From positions 1 through 33,016 of IMG/VR virus record IMGVR_UViG_3300036791_000927: 33,016 nt of DNA. One strand, given 5' to 3'. The notes beneath the pieces are model-generated. The model saw only the letters and a list, made by a program, of their open reading frames with translations. It was not told where the DNA came from and ran no database searches. The position numbers and the translations under genes were made by a program. This stretch comes from a virus. Position 1 is the stretch's first letter. The number at the start of each line of letters is the position of its first letter. This document shows, in pieces, positions 5,812 through 31,355 of the stretch.

Positions 5812-6384
5812 ATGGCCGACAGTCTGACGACGCATTACGGCTGGACGAAGCCAGAGGTTGGCGCTTCCAACGCGACTTGGGGTGGAAAGCTCAACACTGA
5901 TCTCGACAGCATCGATAGCCAAGTCTTCGGGGCGTTGCCGAAATCTGGCGGGACAATGACGGGCCCAGTCACGCTCGCCGCTGATCCAACAACAGCGCTT
6001 GGAGCAGCGACGAAACAATATGTCGATGCTCAAATCGCCGCGGCTATCGCCAGTTCGACTCCAGCCCTTCCGCCGATTGGATCCATTGTGTTTAGCGGAA
6101 TTGTCAGCGGTCCTGCCAATCCAAATTGGCTCGACTGCGACGGGAATTCTTATCCGACCGCGACATATCCGGCATTGTTCGCGGTCATTGGTTATACGTT
6201 TGGCGGCAGCGGCGCGAATTTCAGTGTTCCTTTCTTGGGAGGCCTACTTCCGGTTGGTGAAGACCCTCCAGTTGGGTTTAGCATTGGCGATACGAATTTC
6301 GGCGTCGCAGGCAGGACGGACTTCTCTGGTCAATCAGGATATTTTGGCGCTTTAGCTTTGGGGGCTCAAATCCGCGCGCTATGA
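5812..6384 (+). CDS. Tail collar domain protein (anchor paralogue)
   Basis: A 190-residue protein. Residues 1-73 are the same anchor as in the fibre at 2601 ([15 protein letters not shown] versus MADTLTTNYGWTKPD; both contain GGT(L/M)(S/T)GP(L/V)TLAADP and ATKQYVDA). Residues ~95-160 match the phage tail collar domain: [11 protein letters not shown], then [22 protein letters not shown]. The C-terminus is short and lacks the repeated histidine/glycine tip of long collar fibres, so this may be a short fibre or plug. It ends overlapping the next gene by 4 nt (ATGA). The shared anchor suggests both fibres attach at the same type of site on the tail. Confidence 0.85.
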
Positions 6385-8249
6385 CCAACTTCACGCCAGT
6401 TCAAATTCCACCCGGCGTCGTCTCGCTGCCAACGAAAACGATGTGGTCGAACAATTTTTTCCGGACGAGCTATTGGGCTGAAGCAAACCTCATGCGCTGG
6501 GTCGAAGGCGAACTTGCGCCAATCGGCGGTCAGGCGCAACTTGCTTATCCTGCTTTCGCCTCACGCTGTCGCGCGATCCATGGTTGGTATGATCTGCAAA
6601 ACAATCACTACATCGCCTATGTCTGTGAGCAGAACATCTACGTTGACGTCGGCGGCACGCTCACCGAGATCACGCCGACCGGCGGCTGGGCAGGAGTCAC
6701 GCCGCCGGGTGAGGGCGGCTACGGCGATCTGCTTTATGGCGCGGACAATTACGGCACGCCGCGCGCCACCTCCACAATCCTGCCGATCGACGCTCTGCCG
6801 CCTGTCTGGTCGGTCGATAATTTTGGTCAGATCCTTCTTGTTATGAGCAGCATTGACGGGCGCTTGCTTCAATGGAACCCATCCGTAAGCACCAACACAA
6901 ATGATGTTCAAGATCTGACCTTGTTGGGCAGCCCGACCGGCGGGACCTTCTCCCTCAATTTCAACGGCAAGATCAGCGATCCGATCGCCTTCAACGCGGC
7001 GGCGGCAGACGTGCAAACTGCGATCGCCGCGCTATCCAATGTTGGCTCTGGCAATGTCATTTGCGCCGGTGGACCTTTGCCCGCCGACATCACGATCACT
7101 TTCCAAGGGACATTGGCGGCGGCGCCGCAGCCGACGTTTGGGTGGGCCAACAATGCTTTGACTGGCGGGACGGGCCCGCAACCCAACATCAATCATACGA
7201 CGACTGGCGCTGGCCTTCTTTTGACGCGCGTTGGCGGATCGCCGTTCGCGCGTTGCTTCGTGGTGACTCAAGAACGATTCGTGATCGCGTTCGGCGTCAC
7301 CGGCGACGGCACGTTGGATGGCGGCTCGCCGCGGCGGTTCGCTTGGTGCGATCAGGAGAACATGACGGCCTGGGACTTCGCCAACGTCGTTAGCCAAGCG
7401 GGCTTCCTCGACATCGAACCAGCGAGTCCGATCGTCACTGCTCATACGGGTCGCTATGGTACGCTCATGTTCACCGCGCACAAAGCTTATCTGGTGAGCT
7501 ATCTCGGACTGCCGTACATCTACAATTACAAAGAGCTTGCCGATGATTGCACGCCCTGGTCGCCGGCGTCGATCACCTCAACATCAAGCATCGTCTTCTG
7601 GATGTCTGAGCAGGGCATGTTTTCGTTCGATGGCTCGGCCATCGCGTCGCTCGCTTGTCTCGTGCGGCCCTGGATCACCGACGACCACGATCCGGTGAAT
7701 GTGAGACAACAAGCGACTGCGGTTCACGTCGCCGATTTCAATGAATTTTGGTGGTTCTTTCCACAGCTCGGCCAGCCCTTCAACACTCGTTGCGCCATCT
7801 TCAACTATAAAGAGGGCTGGTGGAGTCAGGGCCAAATGTCCCGCTCAGCCGGCATCACGTCATCATACGTCAAGCATCCCGTCATGGCTGATGGAACAGT
7901 CGTCTATCAGCACGAATTGGGCAATGCTTATTCCTCCGGGCCGCCATGGGCTGAGACGTTCGATCTGAATCTTACCAACGGCGTGCGTTTGGTGACCGTG
8001 AAGCAGCTGATGCCGGACGTCAAAGGCGACGTTGGGAATGTTCAATTTCAGTTCTACACGCGGCTGTCACGCTCGGGCGTTGCGGAGGTTCTCGGGCCGC
8101 CACTGCAGATCCGGCCGGATGGATATGTCGACACTCGGCTGACCGCGCGCGGCGTTCGCATGAAGATTTCGACCATCAATTCGACGATCATCAATCCGTT
8201 CACAGTCGGACAGCATCTTTTCGACATTGCGCCGAGAGGTGATCGCTGA
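6381..8249 (+). CDS. Tail nozzle/DNA stabilisation protein (P22 gp10-like)
   Basis: A 622-residue structural protein. The pattern resembles podovirus nozzle or packaged-DNA stabilisation proteins of the P22 gp10 kind: an N-terminal segment near [14 protein letters not shown], a repeated beta-blade body with [56 protein letters not shown] and [15 protein letters not shown], and a C-terminal strand region ending in [13 protein letters not shown]. These would form a beta-propeller ring closing the tail channel. Residues ~180-278 look like an inserted Ig-like module ([10 protein letters not shown], then [21 protein letters not shown], then [11 protein letters not shown]). It overlaps the upstream gene by 4 nt and the downstream gene by 1 nt. 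Confidence 0.75.
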
Positions 8250-15579: not shown

Positions 15580-15656
15580 GGTCGTTTTTCCTCTTTGTTG
15601 GGCGGAGATGGAGCGCGCGGTCGAACATGCTCTAATTCAATTTTGTGGACTTTCAT
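15576..15656 (-). CDS. 26-codon micro-ORF bridging helicase and membrane protein
   Basis: The frame ATG..TGA encodes a basic, Pro-containing 26-residue peptide (begins MKVHKIELEHVRP). Its ATG overlaps the helicase stop by 4 nt (ATGA) and its own TGA overlaps the ATG of the membrane protein (ATGA), so it could carry ribosomes from one gene to the next. It contains the ribosome-binding site of the downstream gene. It may be only a coupling device rather than a functional peptide. Confidence 0.35.
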   Translation of the reverse strand: MKVHKIELEHVRPRAPSPPNKEEKRP

Positions 15657-17062
15657 GTTACAGGCTCCGCCACGCGCAGATTTTTGAACACTGACTGATA
15701 AAGTGCGTCCTTGCGCTGCAACGCCTTGACGATCCGCCGGTCGAGCGGCGAGCCCGAGAGATCAATGTACAGGACATTCTCGCCCGTCTGGCCGCGGCGG
15801 TGAATCCGGTCTTCGATCTGGTCGCGTGTGTCGGCCGAATAGCTGTTCTCGAAAAAGATCATCGTCCGACACAGATCGTCCTCGTCCGGACCACCGAGCA
15901 GGGTGTGCCCGTACTTGGCCGCGTCGCATTGCAGCAGGATCACCCGGCAGTGCGGATCCTGATTGAAACGATCCTTCTGCTCGCTGACTTCCGCCGGCTT
16001 CATTGAGCCCTTGATCCAAGCCGGATCGTACTCGGCGAGCACGCGCAGCAGAATGTCGAGCACCGCGCGGTGTTTGTAGACGACGCAAGCCTTGCCCTCG
16101 ACCTCGCTCTCCAGCATCGCCAAGAGAAGATTGAGCCGCGGATTCTCTTCGACTGGCACAAGCTGGTGAGTGCCGCCGTGCTCGTCATAGATGAAGCCGG
16201 TCTGGATCTGCGCCAGCTTGGCGTATTTCGCGATCGCCACCTCGACGGTGATCACGCCCGTCTCGACTTCCAGCAGAAATTTGTGCTCCATATCGGCATA
16301 CTGGCTAAGCTGGTCGGCCGACATCAGGTAGTCGCGGATGGTGTAGTCCTTGCGCGGCAGCGCCACGAGCCAGTCCTTCTTCTTCGCCTGAAACACCACT
16401 GGCGCCATGGCCGCGGCGAGCGCCTCGGTGTTCTTCGCCCGGATCACTTCTTTCTGCATCCAGCCACCCATTTCACAGAACGAGCCGCGGAAAGCATAGA
16501 AGTTGGTGAAGGGGAAAAGGCCGATCGTTCGGAGCTGGCCCCACAGGTCATGCGGGCCTTGCGTCTGCGGCCGGCCGGTCAGGAGCCGGACATAGGCGCA
16601 CATTGGCGCCAGCCTATGCAGCGCCTTGGTCTGCTGCGTGCGATGCCCCTTGATCTGAATGCTCTCATCGATCGCGAGGTAGGCGCGGCCGCGCTGCAGC
16701 CACGCTCCCAGCGCCCGCTGTACGTTGGGCATCCGAATCGCTTCATAATTGATCACAAACACCGGCGGCTTGGCATGGCCGTGAGAAACGAACCGCGACG
16801 CCTCGGCGCGCTTGGCTGACTGGAAAATGTGAACGTCGAAGTCGAGCGCGTGCTTCTCGATTTCGTCGAGCCAACCTTGCTTGAAGGTGTTCGGGCAGAC
16901 CGCGAGCATCCGGTCGGCGAGGCCGCTTTGCCAGCAAGTGAAGTATTCGGCCAGCGCCGTGAGTGATTTGCCGAGCCCGGGCTCCATGAACCAGCCGACG
17001 CCGGGCTTGCCTCGGGCGAAGTCGAGCGCGGCAATCTGGACAGGGTCTAGGGAGCTGCTCAT
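15653..17062 (-). CDS. SNF2-like superfamily 2 DNA helicase/translocase
   Basis: A 469-residue ATP-dependent DNA translocase. Visible SF2 motifs: Q-motif region DPVQIAALDF, Walker A MEPGLGKS (K32), Walker B AIDES at 132-134 (a DEAH-box variant), VRLLTGRPQTQGPHDLWGQL (motif III with the SNF2 feature), and motif VI RDQIEDRIHRRGQ near residues 413-425, the hallmark of SNF2 proteins. It is shorter than cellular SNF2 enzymes, as in phage versions. The start is ATG at 17062 in a TGATG junction; a GTG one codon upstream is possible. Its neighbours are a VRR-NUC-like nuclease and an SSB-like protein, so a role in replication, recombination or fork repair is inferred. Confidence 0.88.
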   Translation of the reverse strand: MSSSLDPVQIAALDFARGKPGVGWFMEPGLGKSLTALAEYFTCWQSGLADRMLAVCPNTFKQGWLDEIEKHALDFDVHIFQSAKRAEASRFVSHGHAKPPVFVINYEAIRMPNVQRALGAWLQRGRAYLAIDESIQIKGHRTQQTKALHRLAPMCAYVRLLTGRPQTQGPHDLWGQLRTIGLFPFTNFYAFRGSFCEMGGWMQKEVIRAKNTEALAAAMAPVVFQAKKKDWLVALPRKDYTIRDYLMSADQLSQYADMEHKFLLEVETGVITVEVAIAKYAKLAQIQTGFIYDEHGGTHQLVPVEENPRLNLLLAMLESEVEGKACVVYKHRAVLDILLRVLAEYDPAWIKGSMKPAEVSEQKDRFNQDPHCRVILLQCDAAKYGHTLLGGPDEDDLCRTMIFFENSYSADTRDQIEDRIHRRGQTGENVLYIDLSGSPLDRRIVKALQRKDALYQSVFKNLRVAEPVT

Positions 17063-17421
17063 CACGCTACGCCGCCTTCTTCCCCGTCATTCTGTGTCAC
17101 TCGCGGCATGATCGTCGGGCGAAACTTCCTCGCGATCTTCGCCATGCCGTCCTCCACCGATATGTGCTGGGTCAGGCTGTTGGACCGCAGTCGCAGATAG
17201 CCCGCTGCGCCGTTCCAGTGTTTTGGGTCACTGGCGTCTCCGTTGAGGATGCGTGCGATCAAAGTGGCGACTTGTTCGAGCGCTTCCTTAGATTCGTGCC
17301 CCAAGCCCTCCCAATTGCGCCCGCGCCGCATCAGGCTCTTGAACGTCTGGGCGATCGTCGCCGTGTCGGTGAATGTTCCATGCGCCAACTCTTTGTCGTG
17401 CAGAAAATCATCGATGTTCAT
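17062..17421 (-). CDS. DUF6378-like small phage protein
   Basis: A 119-residue protein with the pattern HGTFTDTATIAQTFKSLMR, then SKEALEQVATLIARILNGDASDPKHWNGAAGYLRL. This resembles the small phage proteins grouped as DUF6378, which look distantly MazG-like (helical nucleotide pyrophosphohydrolase relatives) with a conserved HG, an IARILNGD segment and a HW..AAGY segment. Assignment is by eye. Nucleotide-pool housecleaning is a possible role, not shown. It overlaps the helicase start by 1 nt and the nuclease gene by 14 nt. Confidence 0.6.
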   Translation of the reverse strand: MNIDDFLHDKELAHGTFTDTATIAQTFKSLMRRGRNWEGLGHESKEALEQVATLIARILNGDASDPKHWNGAAGYLRLRSNSLTQHISVEDGMAKIARKFRPTIMPRVTQNDGEEGGVA

Positions 17422-23636: not shown

Positions 23637-24320
23637 TCACCCGTAGTACGGAGTGCGATTGCCACCGGTGGTCATGGGCCCGCGGTAGATCGGCGGCGCT
23701 GTGGTCTGGCCTTGGGGCACGAACACGGGCGAGCGCGCGTTGCCGACGCCGGCGCGGTAATAGCCCAGATTGGCCGTCGCCGGATTGATGGCTGGCGTCG
23801 CCGCGGCGGGCGTCGCGGCCGGGCGAATCGGCGGCGTGATGGTCGGCGTGGACGGCAAACTCATTCCTGGACCACCAGTCGCTGGCGTGACGACGTTTGG
23901 CATTGGTGGTGTGGGCTGACTCATTCCTGGGCCGCCAGTCGGCGGTGTGACCACATTCGGCGTGGAAGGTTGAGGGGGCGGAACATATGGCAGCGTATCG
24001 TTCGAAGCGGTTGGCGTTGATTGCATCGCCAATATGAAAGCTTTCAAAAGAGGATTGCCGCCGCCCTTCAAGAGATTGAGAAGGCCCGGCATCCCGCCGC
24101 CAGCTGCTGCGAGTTCACGCGGATCGATGGTTGTCGCTGGATTGGTCCATTGCCCGACTTGCTTGCCGGGCGGGATCGTCGAGTAGGGCGGCGGGAAAAT
24201 ATCGCCGTAGCTGCCGAGCGCGCCGCCGCCGGGCGGTCGTGCCGCGACAGGCCCGACAGTGCGCCCGGTTAAAGAATTGCCGAGCGGATCGTCGTCAGGA
24301 CTTGGAAGGAGTGGAGGCAT
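23637..24320 (-). CDS. Pro-rich repetitive putative virion protein
   Basis: A 227-residue protein, rich in Pro, Gly and Thr, containing two tandem copies of a PNVVTPPTGGPGMSQP-type block (copy two PNVVTPATGGPGMSLP) and a hydrophobic segment (GGGMPGLLNLLKGGGNPLLKAFILAM). It overlaps the upstream gene by 26 nt and has no clear ribosome-binding site, so coupling is likely. Composition resembles the virion proteins at 11-13 kb. The function is unknown. Confidence 0.55.
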   Translation of the reverse strand: MPPLLPSPDDDPLGNSLTGRTVGPVAARPPGGGALGSYGDIFPPPYSTIPPGKQVGQWTNPATTIDPRELAAAGGGMPGLLNLLKGGGNPLLKAFILAMQSTPTASNDTLPYVPPPQPSTPNVVTPPTGGPGMSQPTPPMPNVVTPATGGPGMSLPSTPTITPPIRPAATPAAATPAINPATANLGYYRAGVGNARSPVFVPQGQTTAPPIYRGPMTTGGNRTPYYG

Positions 24321-24522
24321 GAGCGCCGGGAGTGCTGGGCGTATGGGGAATGGTGACCGGCGCGTTGGCTCGCTTGTCGGCTTCTAGTTCGTCCGAACGG
24401 CGCCGCTGTTCGTCGGCGACCGTCTCCATGTCGGGCGGCGTCGCTTTGGGCGCGGCTTTGGTTGGCGCGGGCGGGGGATGGTCGGTGTTCTTGTCGACGG
24501 GTTTTTGAGGAGTCGTGGCCAT
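24295..24522 (-). CDS. Small charged Pro-rich protein
   Basis: A 75-residue protein from ATG 24522 with GGAGGA 6 nt upstream, a strong site. The longer frame from 24627 would read through the parS palindrome and has no such site. The sequence is disordered-looking (PQKPVDKNTDHPPPAPTKAA) with one charged helix (DEQRRRSDELEADKRA). It heads the minus-strand block downstream of the parS segment. Confidence 0.6.
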   Translation of the reverse strand: MATTPQKPVDKNTDHPPPAPTKAAPKATPPDMETVADEQRRRSDELEADKRANAPVTIPHTPSTPGAHASTPSKS

Positions 24523-24551
24523 GAGATTCCTCCATTCGATGGGCCACTTTA

Positions 24552-24571
24552 CCTGTTTCACGTGAAACAGG
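24552..24571. promoter_or_regulatory. parS: parS-type ParB-binding site (perfect palindrome)
   Basis: A 20-bp perfect palindrome whose 16-bp core TGTTTCACGTGAAACA (24554-24569) is identical to the canonical bacterial parS. It sits in the 126-nt gap between the small-protein gene and the primase-helicase gene. By chance an exact given 16-mer is expected about 8 times in a million windows of this size at equal base frequencies. No parA or parB gene is visible in the window. Confidence 0.85.
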
Positions 24572-24599
24572 CTAGAGAACCTTTTGATCCCTATTTGTC

Positions 24600-24640
24600 C
24601 TGGCAAAAGCTGGCGCAAAGCTGGCACGCGCTGGCACGCG
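24600..24640. repeat. Phased TGGC repeats beside parS
   Basis: Four TGGC units start at 24601, 24611, 24622 and 24632, with 10, 11 and 10 bp between them. The last two are identical GCTGGCACGC units. Helical phasing resembles iterons or tandem protein-binding sites. The array ends 8 nt before the 3' end of the primase-helicase gene. Confidence 0.4.
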
Positions 24641-24648
24641 TTCGCGGT

Positions 24649-27162
24649 TCATTCCGGCTCCATCTCATCCGGATCGTACTCACGTCGCGCGACATAGGGT
24701 TTTTCCTTTTGTCGCATCTGTTTCGCGCCGCGCCATTCCGGACCTGATTCCCATGGGGAAAGATCGTTGTCCTCCCAATCGATGCCCGGCTTCGTCGACC
24801 AGATTCCCGCCAGCGGAAGCGCGTGCGCCTCGCCGACTTTTTGCAGCAATTTGCCATAACCCCATTTGAACTTATACATATCGCCGGTGTCTTTCTTTTC
24901 GATCAGGCCAGCGCGTTCGAACTCCATCAAGACTTGGCCCTCTTCGAGCTTGGTCCGCGGGCCCTCCTGGCGCCGGATCGCCTCACGGAGGTGCACGCGG
25001 CCGAACCATGCGGTAATGTCGAGGTTCTGCATCACGCGCGCGTCGGCGATGATCCGGCGGGCGACGTCGCGCGCCTTGGACATCGTGGCGCGCACCACAT
25101 TTTCGTCGTCGCGTGACGAAAATCGAAGGTCTTCCAGCTCTTCGCGATTGACTTCAATCTCGCTGAAATAGCGCATGAGATGCTGCTTGACCGCAACCGT
25201 CTCCAAAGCCGTGACGAACTTGCTATAGAACGGCTTCAGCTCCAGCGACCAGTTGAGAAACTCGCGGTCGCTCATGTGCTTGTTCTCGGCGGTCCAGGAC
25301 ACGATGAAAAAGAAAGCCCGATCGGCGGCGTCCTCGGGGCTCAATCCGATGTTGGCCTGATTGGTGGCGCAGATCAGCCGCGACGGAATGTAATAGTCGC
25401 GCTGATGCCCGAACTTCACTTGGCCTGAAACGAAATCTGAGCGGACCAGTTTCTTGATGGTGTTAATCGATCCGATCGATTCGAGCCGCACCTCGTCGAT
25501 GAAGGTGATCAGCTTGCCGAGAAAGGGCGTGATCAGGAATTTATTCTCCACGAGAGAGGCCGAATCAGCCGAACCCGCCATTCCGGAGAACAGGGCCGAC
25601 ATGAGCTTCTCGCCAAAGATCGATTTGCCAATTCCCTGGCCGCCGACGATGATCGGGCAGACTTGCGGCTTGATCTCCGGGCGCTGGGCGATCCAGGCGA
25701 CAAATTTTTTTAGCCACAGCATCTGATCGTCGTTGTCGCGCGTCAGTAGGCCCAGCATCCGGTCAAGCATGCTCGTAGCCTCGCCCATGACCGCGGGATC
25801 GACCGTCCCGATTGGCCGGATCGAAAAACCCGGAAAGGTATTGAGCAGCCGGTATTCGTCGGCATGCCTGTCCTCGCCATTGAGAAGCCCGTGGACGGGC
25901 GAATGACGCAAAACGGCTCCTGGGACCGCGCCGGGATAAAAGTCCCGCCGTTGGACGTCTGTGCGCAGCTGAGAGGTGGCGTAAAGCTTGAAAGGGTTAT
26001 GCGGCTTGGTCTGGAGAAAAACCGGCTCATTGTCCCATTGCTTGATCAGGTCGTCATATTTGTGCTCGTAACGGAGTCCTTTGAGCAAGGCTTCACGGTC
26101 CAAATAGACATGATCACTTTGGTCATAGGCGTAGCGTTCGCTCATCCTTTCGATCGCGTCGATGTCAAGCCCGGCGCGGAACGCCCGCCGAATCCCGACT
26201 TTGGCGTGGCTGCCGAACAGGCGTTCGATCGCCGTCCAGCCTGAAATTGGCGCAGCCGAATTGTAGTCCAGCGCGCGATCGGCGCTGACAAAGACATGCT
26301 CCAACGCCTTGGGAGCTCCAAACCGAGCAAGGAAGGCGATCAGCTCGCGGGCGTTCGAAGCGGCGTCAATCGGCGACCAGCACACGTTTTCGAGGCTCTT
26401 GCCGCGGGCGTTGATGTCCCGGCCCTCGCGGATCAGCCGGGCGATCCAGCCGCCGATGGCGCGGATCAGGATCTCGTCCCACTGGGTTAGGCCATCGAGA
26501 TAAATCCGGATCCAATAGGCAAGCGTGGCGAAGGCGATCGCCCGTATCACCGACTCCATCGTCGTCGATCCGATCGGCCGCCGCTCAAGGTCTTCGAGCC
26601 CTAGCTCGATATCGTCCGCCGCCGGCTTGCCGAGCGGCCGCCAACGAATGAGCTGGCCGCCGAAGCGCGAGCCCGGCAGGGGCGAACTGTCGCGCCACAG
26701 CATCTTTTTGGCGATCGTTAGGGAATAGGCGAATTCCGTCTCTACCCAACCATGCGCCCGGTCGAAATGGCCGCGCGGCCAGCGCGCGCGCCAGCTGTCA
26801 ATTGACGTTGGATCTTCAATCTTCAGAATGATGGAGGAGATTGTTCGCCCGCCGTAGGCGGCGCGAGCATCGACGCGCAGCGCGGCGCAGGCGTCAAAGA
26901 AATTGCGAATCCAAACGTCGTCGGGGGATTTGATTCTCAGCTCGATATAGCCATCGACCAACCGGATCGCGGCGTTGTTTTCCTCGTCTGGGGAATTCCA
27001 ATCGGCGAGGTTGGTTTCGAGCTTCTCCGGCGCGCGCGCGGCGTCTTCCGTACTGGCGATTCCGGTTTCCGGCTTGAGCCAGACGGCCGGGGCGGTGATT
27101 CGACGTTTGGCGAGAAAATCTACTGTCAGAAATCGTTGGGTTTTTATTGGCTCTGACGGCAT
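24649..27162 (-). CDS. SF3 helicase / DUF5906-type primase-helicase
   Basis: An 837-residue replication protein. The ATPase core shows Walker A GGQGIGKS (507-514, K513), Walker B ITFIDEV with D556-E557, and a sensor-like RLICATNQANIG segment, typical of superfamily 3 helicases in the DUF5906 group of phage primase-helicases. The ~480-residue N-terminal part is not a recognisable primase; a catalytic primase motif is not obvious. It probably unwinds the phage origin and loads the replisome. The start ATG has GAGGTG 8 nt upstream. Its 3' end adjoins the parS segment. No DNA polymerase is present in the window. Confidence 0.85.
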   Translation of the reverse strand: MPSEPIKTQRFLTVDFLAKRRITAPAVWLKPETGIASTEDAARAPEKLETNLADWNSPDEENNAAIRLVDGYIELRIKSPDDVWIRNFFDACAALRVDARAAYGGRTISSIILKIEDPTSIDSWRARWPRGHFDRAHGWVETEFAYSLTIAKKMLWRDSSPLPGSRFGGQLIRWRPLGKPAADDIELGLEDLERRPIGSTTMESVIRAIAFATLAYWIRIYLDGLTQWDEILIRAIGGWIARLIREGRDINARGKSLENVCWSPIDAASNARELIAFLARFGAPKALEHVFVSADRALDYNSAAPISGWTAIERLFGSHAKVGIRRAFRAGLDIDAIERMSERYAYDQSDHVYLDREALLKGLRYEHKYDDLIKQWDNEPVFLQTKPHNPFKLYATSQLRTDVQRRDFYPGAVPGAVLRHSPVHGLLNGEDRHADEYRLLNTFPGFSIRPIGTVDPAVMGEATSMLDRMLGLLTRDNDDQMLWLKKFVAWIAQRPEIKPQVCPIIVGGQGIGKSIFGEKLMSALFSGMAGSADSASLVENKFLITPFLGKLITFIDEVRLESIGSINTIKKLVRSDFVSGQVKFGHQRDYYIPSRLICATNQANIGLSPEDAADRAFFFIVSWTAENKHMSDREFLNWSLELKPFYSKFVTALETVAVKQHLMRYFSEIEVNREELEDLRFSSRDDENVVRATMSKARDVARRIIADARVMQNLDITAWFGRVHLREAIRRQEGPRTKLEEGQVLMEFERAGLIEKKDTGDMYKFKWGYGKLLQKVGEAHALPLAGIWSTKPGIDWEDNDLSPWESGPEWRGAKQMRQKEKPYVARREYDPDEMEPE

Positions 27163-30262: not shown

Positions 30263-31291
30263 TCAGACCAGGGCCGGAACCTTGTCCTTGACCAGCGGCA
30301 GCAGCAGCGCCATCGCCTTGCCCTTCAGATCATCGCCGGAACCGAACACGCCGCTGTCGAAGCGGCCGATGATCGGATCGGCGGCGCCCTTCACCGAGCG
30401 ATCATGATCGACGTAACGCGTGACCGCCTGCAGCGCGCTCCAAACGTCGTCGGCGTTCGAATTGCGCTCTTGCTTGGTCACGGTGTAGGCGTGCGACAGA
30501 TCCGCGTACTGGTTAAGCTTGCGTGTCGAGACGTCGTCCTTTTTGGACTCTAGCGGAATTTCGAGGACGTTGCGGAAAAACTGCCGTACCGAATCATACG
30601 ACATGTTCACCTGCGCCATGGCGTCGCCGAGCTGTTTGTAGGCGGCGAAGGATTGGGCGATTTGCGCCAGCTCCTTGGCCACGCGATCGCCTTGGAACAC
30701 GGTGGAGTGTCTAGTCTTGATCGCGGCGCGTTTGTCGCTGTGAGCCATGCGGAGGGTATTGGAGCACACGGCGCGGGTCATGGTGGCTTGGTTGGTCGTC
30801 GGCGCCGTCTGATCGAAGGATGTAGACATCAGGAGGTAGGCGCGGTGGGCGTCGCCCGCGACCGTGACATCACCGTTGAAACGCGCCGTGGCCCAGAGAC
30901 GTTCTCCGCCGTGCAGGACGCCGGCGGCGGAGATATGGAAACGCGGATCGACGGTGATGTAGCGATCGAACCAATCCCAGACGTCGGCGGGCTGGACAAC
31001 TTGGTAACCATCAGAGGCGAAGCCAAGCACGGCGCCGGTATCGGTGCGCACGAGGAAGCGCTTGTCGCTTTCCACGTAAGGGTTGTTGAGGTGATTAAAG
31101 GCTTCGTTGCGGCTCAGGTCCGCGATGGCCGGGACCTTTTCCACCCGGTAGTTGAAGCCTGCAGCGGCGATCCATTCGGCCGCTGGCGCGTCTGAGGCCA
31201 TTTCTTGGCCAAGCTTGTGCCAGATTTCGCCGCGATCGCCGGTGAAGGCGAAGCTATAGCGGCCATTGGCGAATTCGAGTTCATGGGCCAT
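30263..31291 (-). CDS. DUF932 family protein (phage/plasmid-like)
   Basis: A 342-residue protein; ATG 31291 is preferred, as AAAAGGAAAC lies 9 nt upstream. The family is recognised by its N-terminus (GEIWHKLGQEM), the LVRTDTGAVLGFASDGYQVVQ segment, RLWATARFNGDV, AYLLMSTSFDQTAP, AVCSNTLRMA and RHSTVFQGDRV. DUF932 proteins are common on plasmids, phages and integrative elements. The precise role is unknown, though they are suspected of acting on DNA or in element maintenance. It is the largest protein of the right early region. It is preceded by leader module 4. Confidence 0.88.
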   Translation of the reverse strand: MAHELEFANGRYSFAFTGDRGEIWHKLGQEMASDAPAAEWIAAAGFNYRVEKVPAIADLSRNEAFNHLNNPYVESDKRFLVRTDTGAVLGFASDGYQVVQPADVWDWFDRYITVDPRFHISAAGVLHGGERLWATARFNGDVTVAGDAHRAYLLMSTSFDQTAPTTNQATMTRAVCSNTLRMAHSDKRAAIKTRHSTVFQGDRVAKELAQIAQSFAAYKQLGDAMAQVNMSYDSVRQFFRNVLEIPLESKKDDVSTRKLNQYADLSHAYTVTKQERNSNADDVWSALQAVTRYVDHDRSVKGAADPIIGRFDSGVFGSGDDLKGKAMALLLPLVKDKVPALV

Positions 31292-31355
31292 TTTTCGAGT
31301 TTCCTTTTGGTGTTTCCGGCGGGATCGCCGTTCAAGCCCGTCGCACACGGGCTTG
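31292..31355 (-). promoter_or_regulatory. Leader module 4 (hairpin with TGTGCGA loop + GGAAAC)
   Basis: CAAGCCCG (31355-31348) pairs perfectly with CGGGCTTG (31340-31333), loop TGTGCGA. A second hairpin GGCG-ATCC-CGCC follows, then AAAAGGAAACTCGAAAA before ATG 31291. The first stem starts 14 nt after the upstream stop and ends 41 nt before the ATG. Confidence 0.68.

Follow-up and report, generated by a model that had tools for sequence, protein, structure and literature searches.

Orphan chromosomal-type parS sites in phage genomes as candidate mimics of the host centromere

Two ways of combining a mobile element with bacterial partition machinery are already known: phages that encode their own ParA and ParB, and an element whose parS mimic makes use of the partition system of a resident helper plasmid. 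The phage-plasmids P1, N15 and RedRock belong to the first kind, each encoding ParA and ParB with a cognate parS, which in RedRock consists of 8-bp direct repeats (PMC7157519). Partition functions of a phage with its own ParA and ParB have also been described for Mic1 (PMC7156551). SGI1 represents the second kind, with parS-like sites that hijack the ParABS system of IncC plasmids (PMC10954446). A survey of the open-access literature, subscription papers lying outside its scope, found no report of phages, lytic ones included, that have a host chromosomal parS but no ParB. Such an arrangement is described here for a soil virus contig of 33,016 bp, referred to below as the window.

The 16-bp inverted repeat TGTTTCACGTGAAACA at 24554-24569 of the window matches chromosomal-type parS with 0 mismatches in a pattern search, and it forms the centre of a perfect 20-bp palindrome, CCTGTTTCACGTGAAACAGG, at 24552-24571. 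Both features agree with the original prediction made for this DNA, as does the single copy, since a pattern search of the whole record returned no second parS with up to three mismatches. At the base composition of the window, the number of exact parS sites expected by chance is about 3 in a million (arithmetic), and shuffled sequence gives 0.07 expected matches even at three mismatches. The site is held in a 126-bp gap (24523-24648; no strand is assigned to the gap, the palindrome or the parS) flanked by two minus-strand genes. Its limits are the stop of a primase-helicase gene at 24649 and the ATG at 24522 of a small ORF of 75 aa (24295-24522, minus strand), in which a GGAGG Shine-Dalgarno precedes the start. 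The gap is non-coding provided that this downstream gene starts at the ATG at 24522. The frame upstream of the ATG is open, and an ORF with a GTG start (24295-24627) would read LFHVKQ across the palindrome; a longer gene running through the palindrome in this way is unlikely. The primase-helicase itself (24649-27162, minus strand, 837 aa) matches DUF5906/VapE-like and PHROG DNA primase profiles; the original prediction had called it an SF3 helicase.

Few other signals are recognisable in the gap. The promoter scan found no sigma-70-like promoter near the parS. The palindrome was also considered as an intrinsic terminator, an assignment rejected because no T run follows the stem-loop and the terminator scan lists none there. 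Adjoining the parS on the plus strand, at 24600-24640, are four imperfect CTGGC-type direct repeats of 10-11 bp, two of them exact, for which repeat detection reports 2.1 copies of GCTGGCACGC. These repeats are weak candidates for the iterons of a replication origin.

The site has no partition genes in view, as had been anticipated. Profile searches for ParB_N (PF02195) and for the ParA-type AAA_31 (PF13614) gave no match at E≤1 in the window, which is a fragment, nor in nine relatives or the Ochrobactrum phage vB_OspP_OH; control genomes were positive in the same search. Larger relatives of 39-49 kb are likewise without ParB_N or AAA_31, though the missing part of the window could hold them. 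The phage-encoded ParA and ParB that characterise phage-plasmid ParABS are thus found neither in the window nor in the nine relatives and vB_OspP_OH, and what the window presents is the arrangement of an SGI1-type hijack, in which an element with no ParAB of its own bears a mimic of a resident system's parS.

Terminase, portal and capsid genes, all present in the relatives and in vB_OspP_OH, are absent from the window, which is for this reason taken to be one part of a genome whose full length is roughly 40-50 kb. Among named phages the nearest relative is vB_OspP_OH (MT028492), with a syntenic genome and 33% identity between the primase and the primase-polymerase. A primase search with a single sequence gave no matches; with profiles built from relatives, nine IMG/VR contigs were recovered by primase and 42 by the SNF2-type helicase (15653-17065, minus strand), which served as the marker gene for these clade relatives. 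The tail/stabilization protein (6381-8249, plus strand) is common to vB_OspP_OH and, distantly, to the pelagiphages HTVC023P and HTVC027P. The early region also encodes a DUF932 protein (30263-31348), for which there is no known link to parS. The primase profile found no relatives among the bacterial and archaeal genomes searched, which represent about 85,000 species, as expected for a non-integrating phage. Megablast returned no plasmid relatives, and no integrase was recognised among the ORFs scanned, which are part of those in this incomplete record.

The closest named relatives infect Alphaproteobacteria (Ochrobactrum, Sinorhizobium), and a genome scan located the identical 20-mer on contigs of Afipia, Pseudolabrys, Bauldia, Methylobacterium and other Hyphomicrobiales, and also on contigs of Streptomyces and Burkholderiales. 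The probable hosts of the window phage are deduced from these two sources, the hosts of named relatives and the occurrence of the 20-mer. On the Hyphomicrobiales contigs inspected, the 20-mer or 16-mer is found by mnmE, gidA, gidB or parA (genes read from translations), and the mnmE-gidA-gidB-parA cluster is the chromosomal parS neighbourhood. On several of them the chromosomal site encodes VSRET or FHVK. The same sequence, as an identical 20-mer near parA, therefore serves as parS in plausible hosts, where plausible means inferred for the window phage.

Occurrence of parS in phage DNA is not a matter of chance, because the site is enriched over matched controls in three data sets, in keeping with what had been proposed for the window alone. 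The control in IMG/VR was the palindrome TTGTTCACGTGAACAA, which has the same core and dinucleotide content as parS; exact parS occurs in at least 120 contigs and the control in 5. Among the matches listed, 64 of 146 parS sites are wholly non-coding where about 10% would be expected (P about 6e-26, independence assumed), and ParB_N is absent from 46 of the 50 larger contigs. The possibility that parS entered the viral contigs through host contamination was considered and rejected on this last count and because terminase forms the largest gene cluster at parS loci. The named phages of INPHARED give the second comparison, in which a parS query with A/T flanks matches 315 of 50,697 records and two matched control palindromes match 0 and 0. 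The third was carried out on 32 genomes or fragments related to the window, the window itself being left out, with all 840 palindromes of the same half-site composition as parS for comparison. There parS ranks first of 840 at 0, 1 and 2 mismatches. Exact parS is present in 2 genomes and every other palindrome in 0; with up to two mismatches parS reaches 9 genomes (mean of the other palindromes 0.19, best 6), with 5 of the 9 matches sitting in one shared gene and hence not independent. The remaining 23 of the 32 records, some of them fragments and several longer than 40 kb, are without any parS of up to two mismatches.

The position of the exact site in the window is not conserved among relatives. 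The region downstream of the primase in relatives with 53-63% primase identity is occupied by another small ORF and lacks the palindrome, and because the gap itself has been remodelled, retention in place cannot be scored. In vB_OspP_OH, GTTTCACGTGGAAC is present in both annotated 55-bp terminal repeats (L122:27-42 and 41199-41214), that is, at the genome ends, although the repeat could alternatively be an assembly overlap. One relative (G089) has an exact parS within the SNF2 helicase gene, whose protein reads LVSRETNPRL there against LVxPxxNPRL in others. Two more, G025 with an exact parS and G086 with the core intact, have the site inside a probable homologue of a small window gene (17062-17421, minus strand), where it is read as VSRETL; the window copy of this gene has no parS. 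A gene adjoining the capsid gene bears a parS-like word in six relatives (G008, G006, G080, G082, G069 and G068), 4 of them having it in the FHVK frame (with three mismatches in the case of G006) and the other 2 in the VSRET frame, elsewhere in the gene. These capsid-neighbour cases partly share ancestry. The near matches in G006 and G008 were examined as possible chance coding matches, but the wider set shows the same gene with the motif in two frames, and they were kept as non-independent cases. That a single DNA word is translated in two different frames and turns up at loci unrelated to one another argues for selection acting on the DNA and not on the protein, and parS in the window clade, to judge from these sequence comparisons, fits DNA-level selection with site turnover.

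Four related records also contain hybrid sites, TATTTCCCGTGAAACG, which at 3 mismatches were left out of the parS counts. This hybrid palindrome, whose two halves resemble a Noc-binding site and parS respectively, is conserved (G002:19652, G003:1765, G066:5712 and G067:9496).

Orphan parS sites recur well outside this clade. In marine viral contigs that are otherwise diverged, an exact parS precedes the genes of one terminase (TerL) family by 18-97 bp (L019, L027, L029, L042, L066, L083, L093, L097, L101, L111, L119, L120 and L088). The TerL-family search was blind to parS; its best 80 matches provided 73 loci with enough upstream sequence, and parS lies within 400 bp upstream of TerL in 13 of the 73, the control palindrome in 0. 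At one of these loci, L097, TGTTCCACGTGGAACA stands beside the parS. In the cultured pelagiphage HTVC027P, which has no ParB, the parS core lies within a non-coding gap of 290 bp. Named phages with parS in INPHARED come from Listeria, Microbacterium, Arthrobacter, Gordonia, Bacillus, Lactobacillus, Enterococcus, Ruegeria and other hosts; phages of the first four dominate the matches, which often lie in gaps, and a microvirus, Spiroplasma phage 4, is among them. ParB_N is absent from 11 of the 12 named parS phages checked, and the number of copies runs from one to four, with two copies 19 bp apart in Glutamicibacter phage Voltaire and four within 1 kb in Bacillus phage vB_BcoS-136. Phages that are generally considered virulent are also among the carriers of orphan parS.

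The distribution of host names bears on the likely partner of these sites. Escherichia, Klebsiella and Salmonella are outside the ten commonest names in the list of parS matches; the collection has hundreds of Escherichia and Klebsiella records. Hosts of these three genera are not known to have a chromosomal ParABS, and the absence of their names from the ten commonest is no more than suggestive of host ParB as the partner. Mycobacterium, with a parS similar to the chromosomal type, is likewise outside the ten commonest names, an observation that counts against recruitment of ParB.

An orphan host-type parS that is not due to chance, and that recurs both in relatives and in unrelated phages, points to use of host ParB. 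For the window, the somewhat favoured reading is that the palindrome mimics the host centromere site and would load host ParB onto the phage DNA in cis. The unconserved position of the exact site, and its absence from most of the relatives compared, count against this reading. The predicted binding of ParB to the phage parS would begin after injection, when host chromosomal ParB would recognise the site, load as a CTP-dependent clamp and then spread along the phage genome. The benefit in cis is less certain and may be that ParB-coated phage DNA is handled as nucleoid DNA, which would mean docking to ParA/SMC, retention in the nucleoid zone, and condensation or shielding. The setting would be lytic infection and not plasmid-prophage partition. 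The broader proposition, on which the balance is even, is that phages of many lineages and many hosts, including virulent phages and single-stranded DNA microviruses, mimic the host centromere by DNA alone: each would retain chromosomal parS sites in small number, from one to a few, that evolve anew at changing positions, and host ParB clamps loaded there would mark the genome as nucleoid, with consequences for positioning, for SMC loading or as a "self" mark against nucleases. If host ParB does load on such genomes, chromosome segregation proteins would be a general phage host factor.

The main rival to recruitment in cis is titration, by which replicating phage genomes would soak up host ParB and stall chromosome segregation and division, the site acting in trans as a decoy for takeover. 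Titration would account equally well for sites that are independent of position and are carried by virulent phages, and the two to four parS copies of some phages speak in its favour; the window and most site-bearing relatives have a single parS, however, though a decoy would be easily multiplied. This low copy number mildly favours a role in cis, and titration is judged unlikely. Local regulation is less probable again. According to it, host ParB, or a phage repressor of the same specificity, would bind the palindrome and thereby silence the genes around it or set their timing, in line with the frequent location of parS in short gaps near gene starts and with the reported repression by Pseudomonas aeruginosa ParB of promoters near parS3 and parS4 (PMC5521831). 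Yet the neighbouring genes vary among relatives, many sites are intragenic and the window copy has no promoter-like site nearby. Such indifference of parS to the genes around it argues against regulation of one promoter.

Partition of a plasmid-like prophage by host ParABS during lysogeny, one of the forms that the original prediction gave to its proposal of host-partition use, is quite improbable. SGI1 offers a precedent in which parS without ParAB is likewise paired with a resident ParABS (PMC10954446), but neither an integrase nor a partition gene was recognised here, no relatives were found in bacterial genomes (about 85,000 species) and the identical orphan site is carried by phages regarded as virulent. 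The virulent phages that carry the site, and the failure to find kin in bacterial genomes, together argue against lysogenic partition as a general role. Of that proposal the recourse to host ParB, to which the recurrent orphan parS points, is supported and the plasmid-like prophage is not. Least probable of all is that the palindrome has no function and either arose by chance or is left over from host DNA, since the unconserved position and the many relatives without the site, which would suit it, are set against enrichment over matched controls in three data sets and the lack of any recognisable host gene beside the site.

The window compares with known systems as follows. It has the 16-bp inverted repeat of chromosomal parS in the Bacillus and Caulobacter ParABS systems, with the 20-mer near parA in Hyphomicrobiales chromosomes, but on a phage genome that has no parA or parB and offers no oriC context. 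Phage-plasmid ParABS systems also have parS on a phage genome; unlike them, the window has no detectable ParA or ParB. Its syntenic relative vB_OspP_OH carries the site, as GTTTCACGTGGAAC, in terminal repeats, differing in that the site is an asymmetric variant at the genome ends and in that its primase is only 33% identical. HTVC027P and its TerL relatives share a parS core in a non-coding gap and the absence of ParB, but their lineage is another one and the genome is larger (57.6 kb), and the sites in the marine contigs are near packaging genes. The resemblance to SGI1 lies in a mobile element with parS mimics exploiting a resident partition system, as the window phage would do; in SGI1, an integrative mobilizable element, it is the parS of a plasmid that is mimicked, whereas the window phage has the chromosomal parS of its probable hosts.
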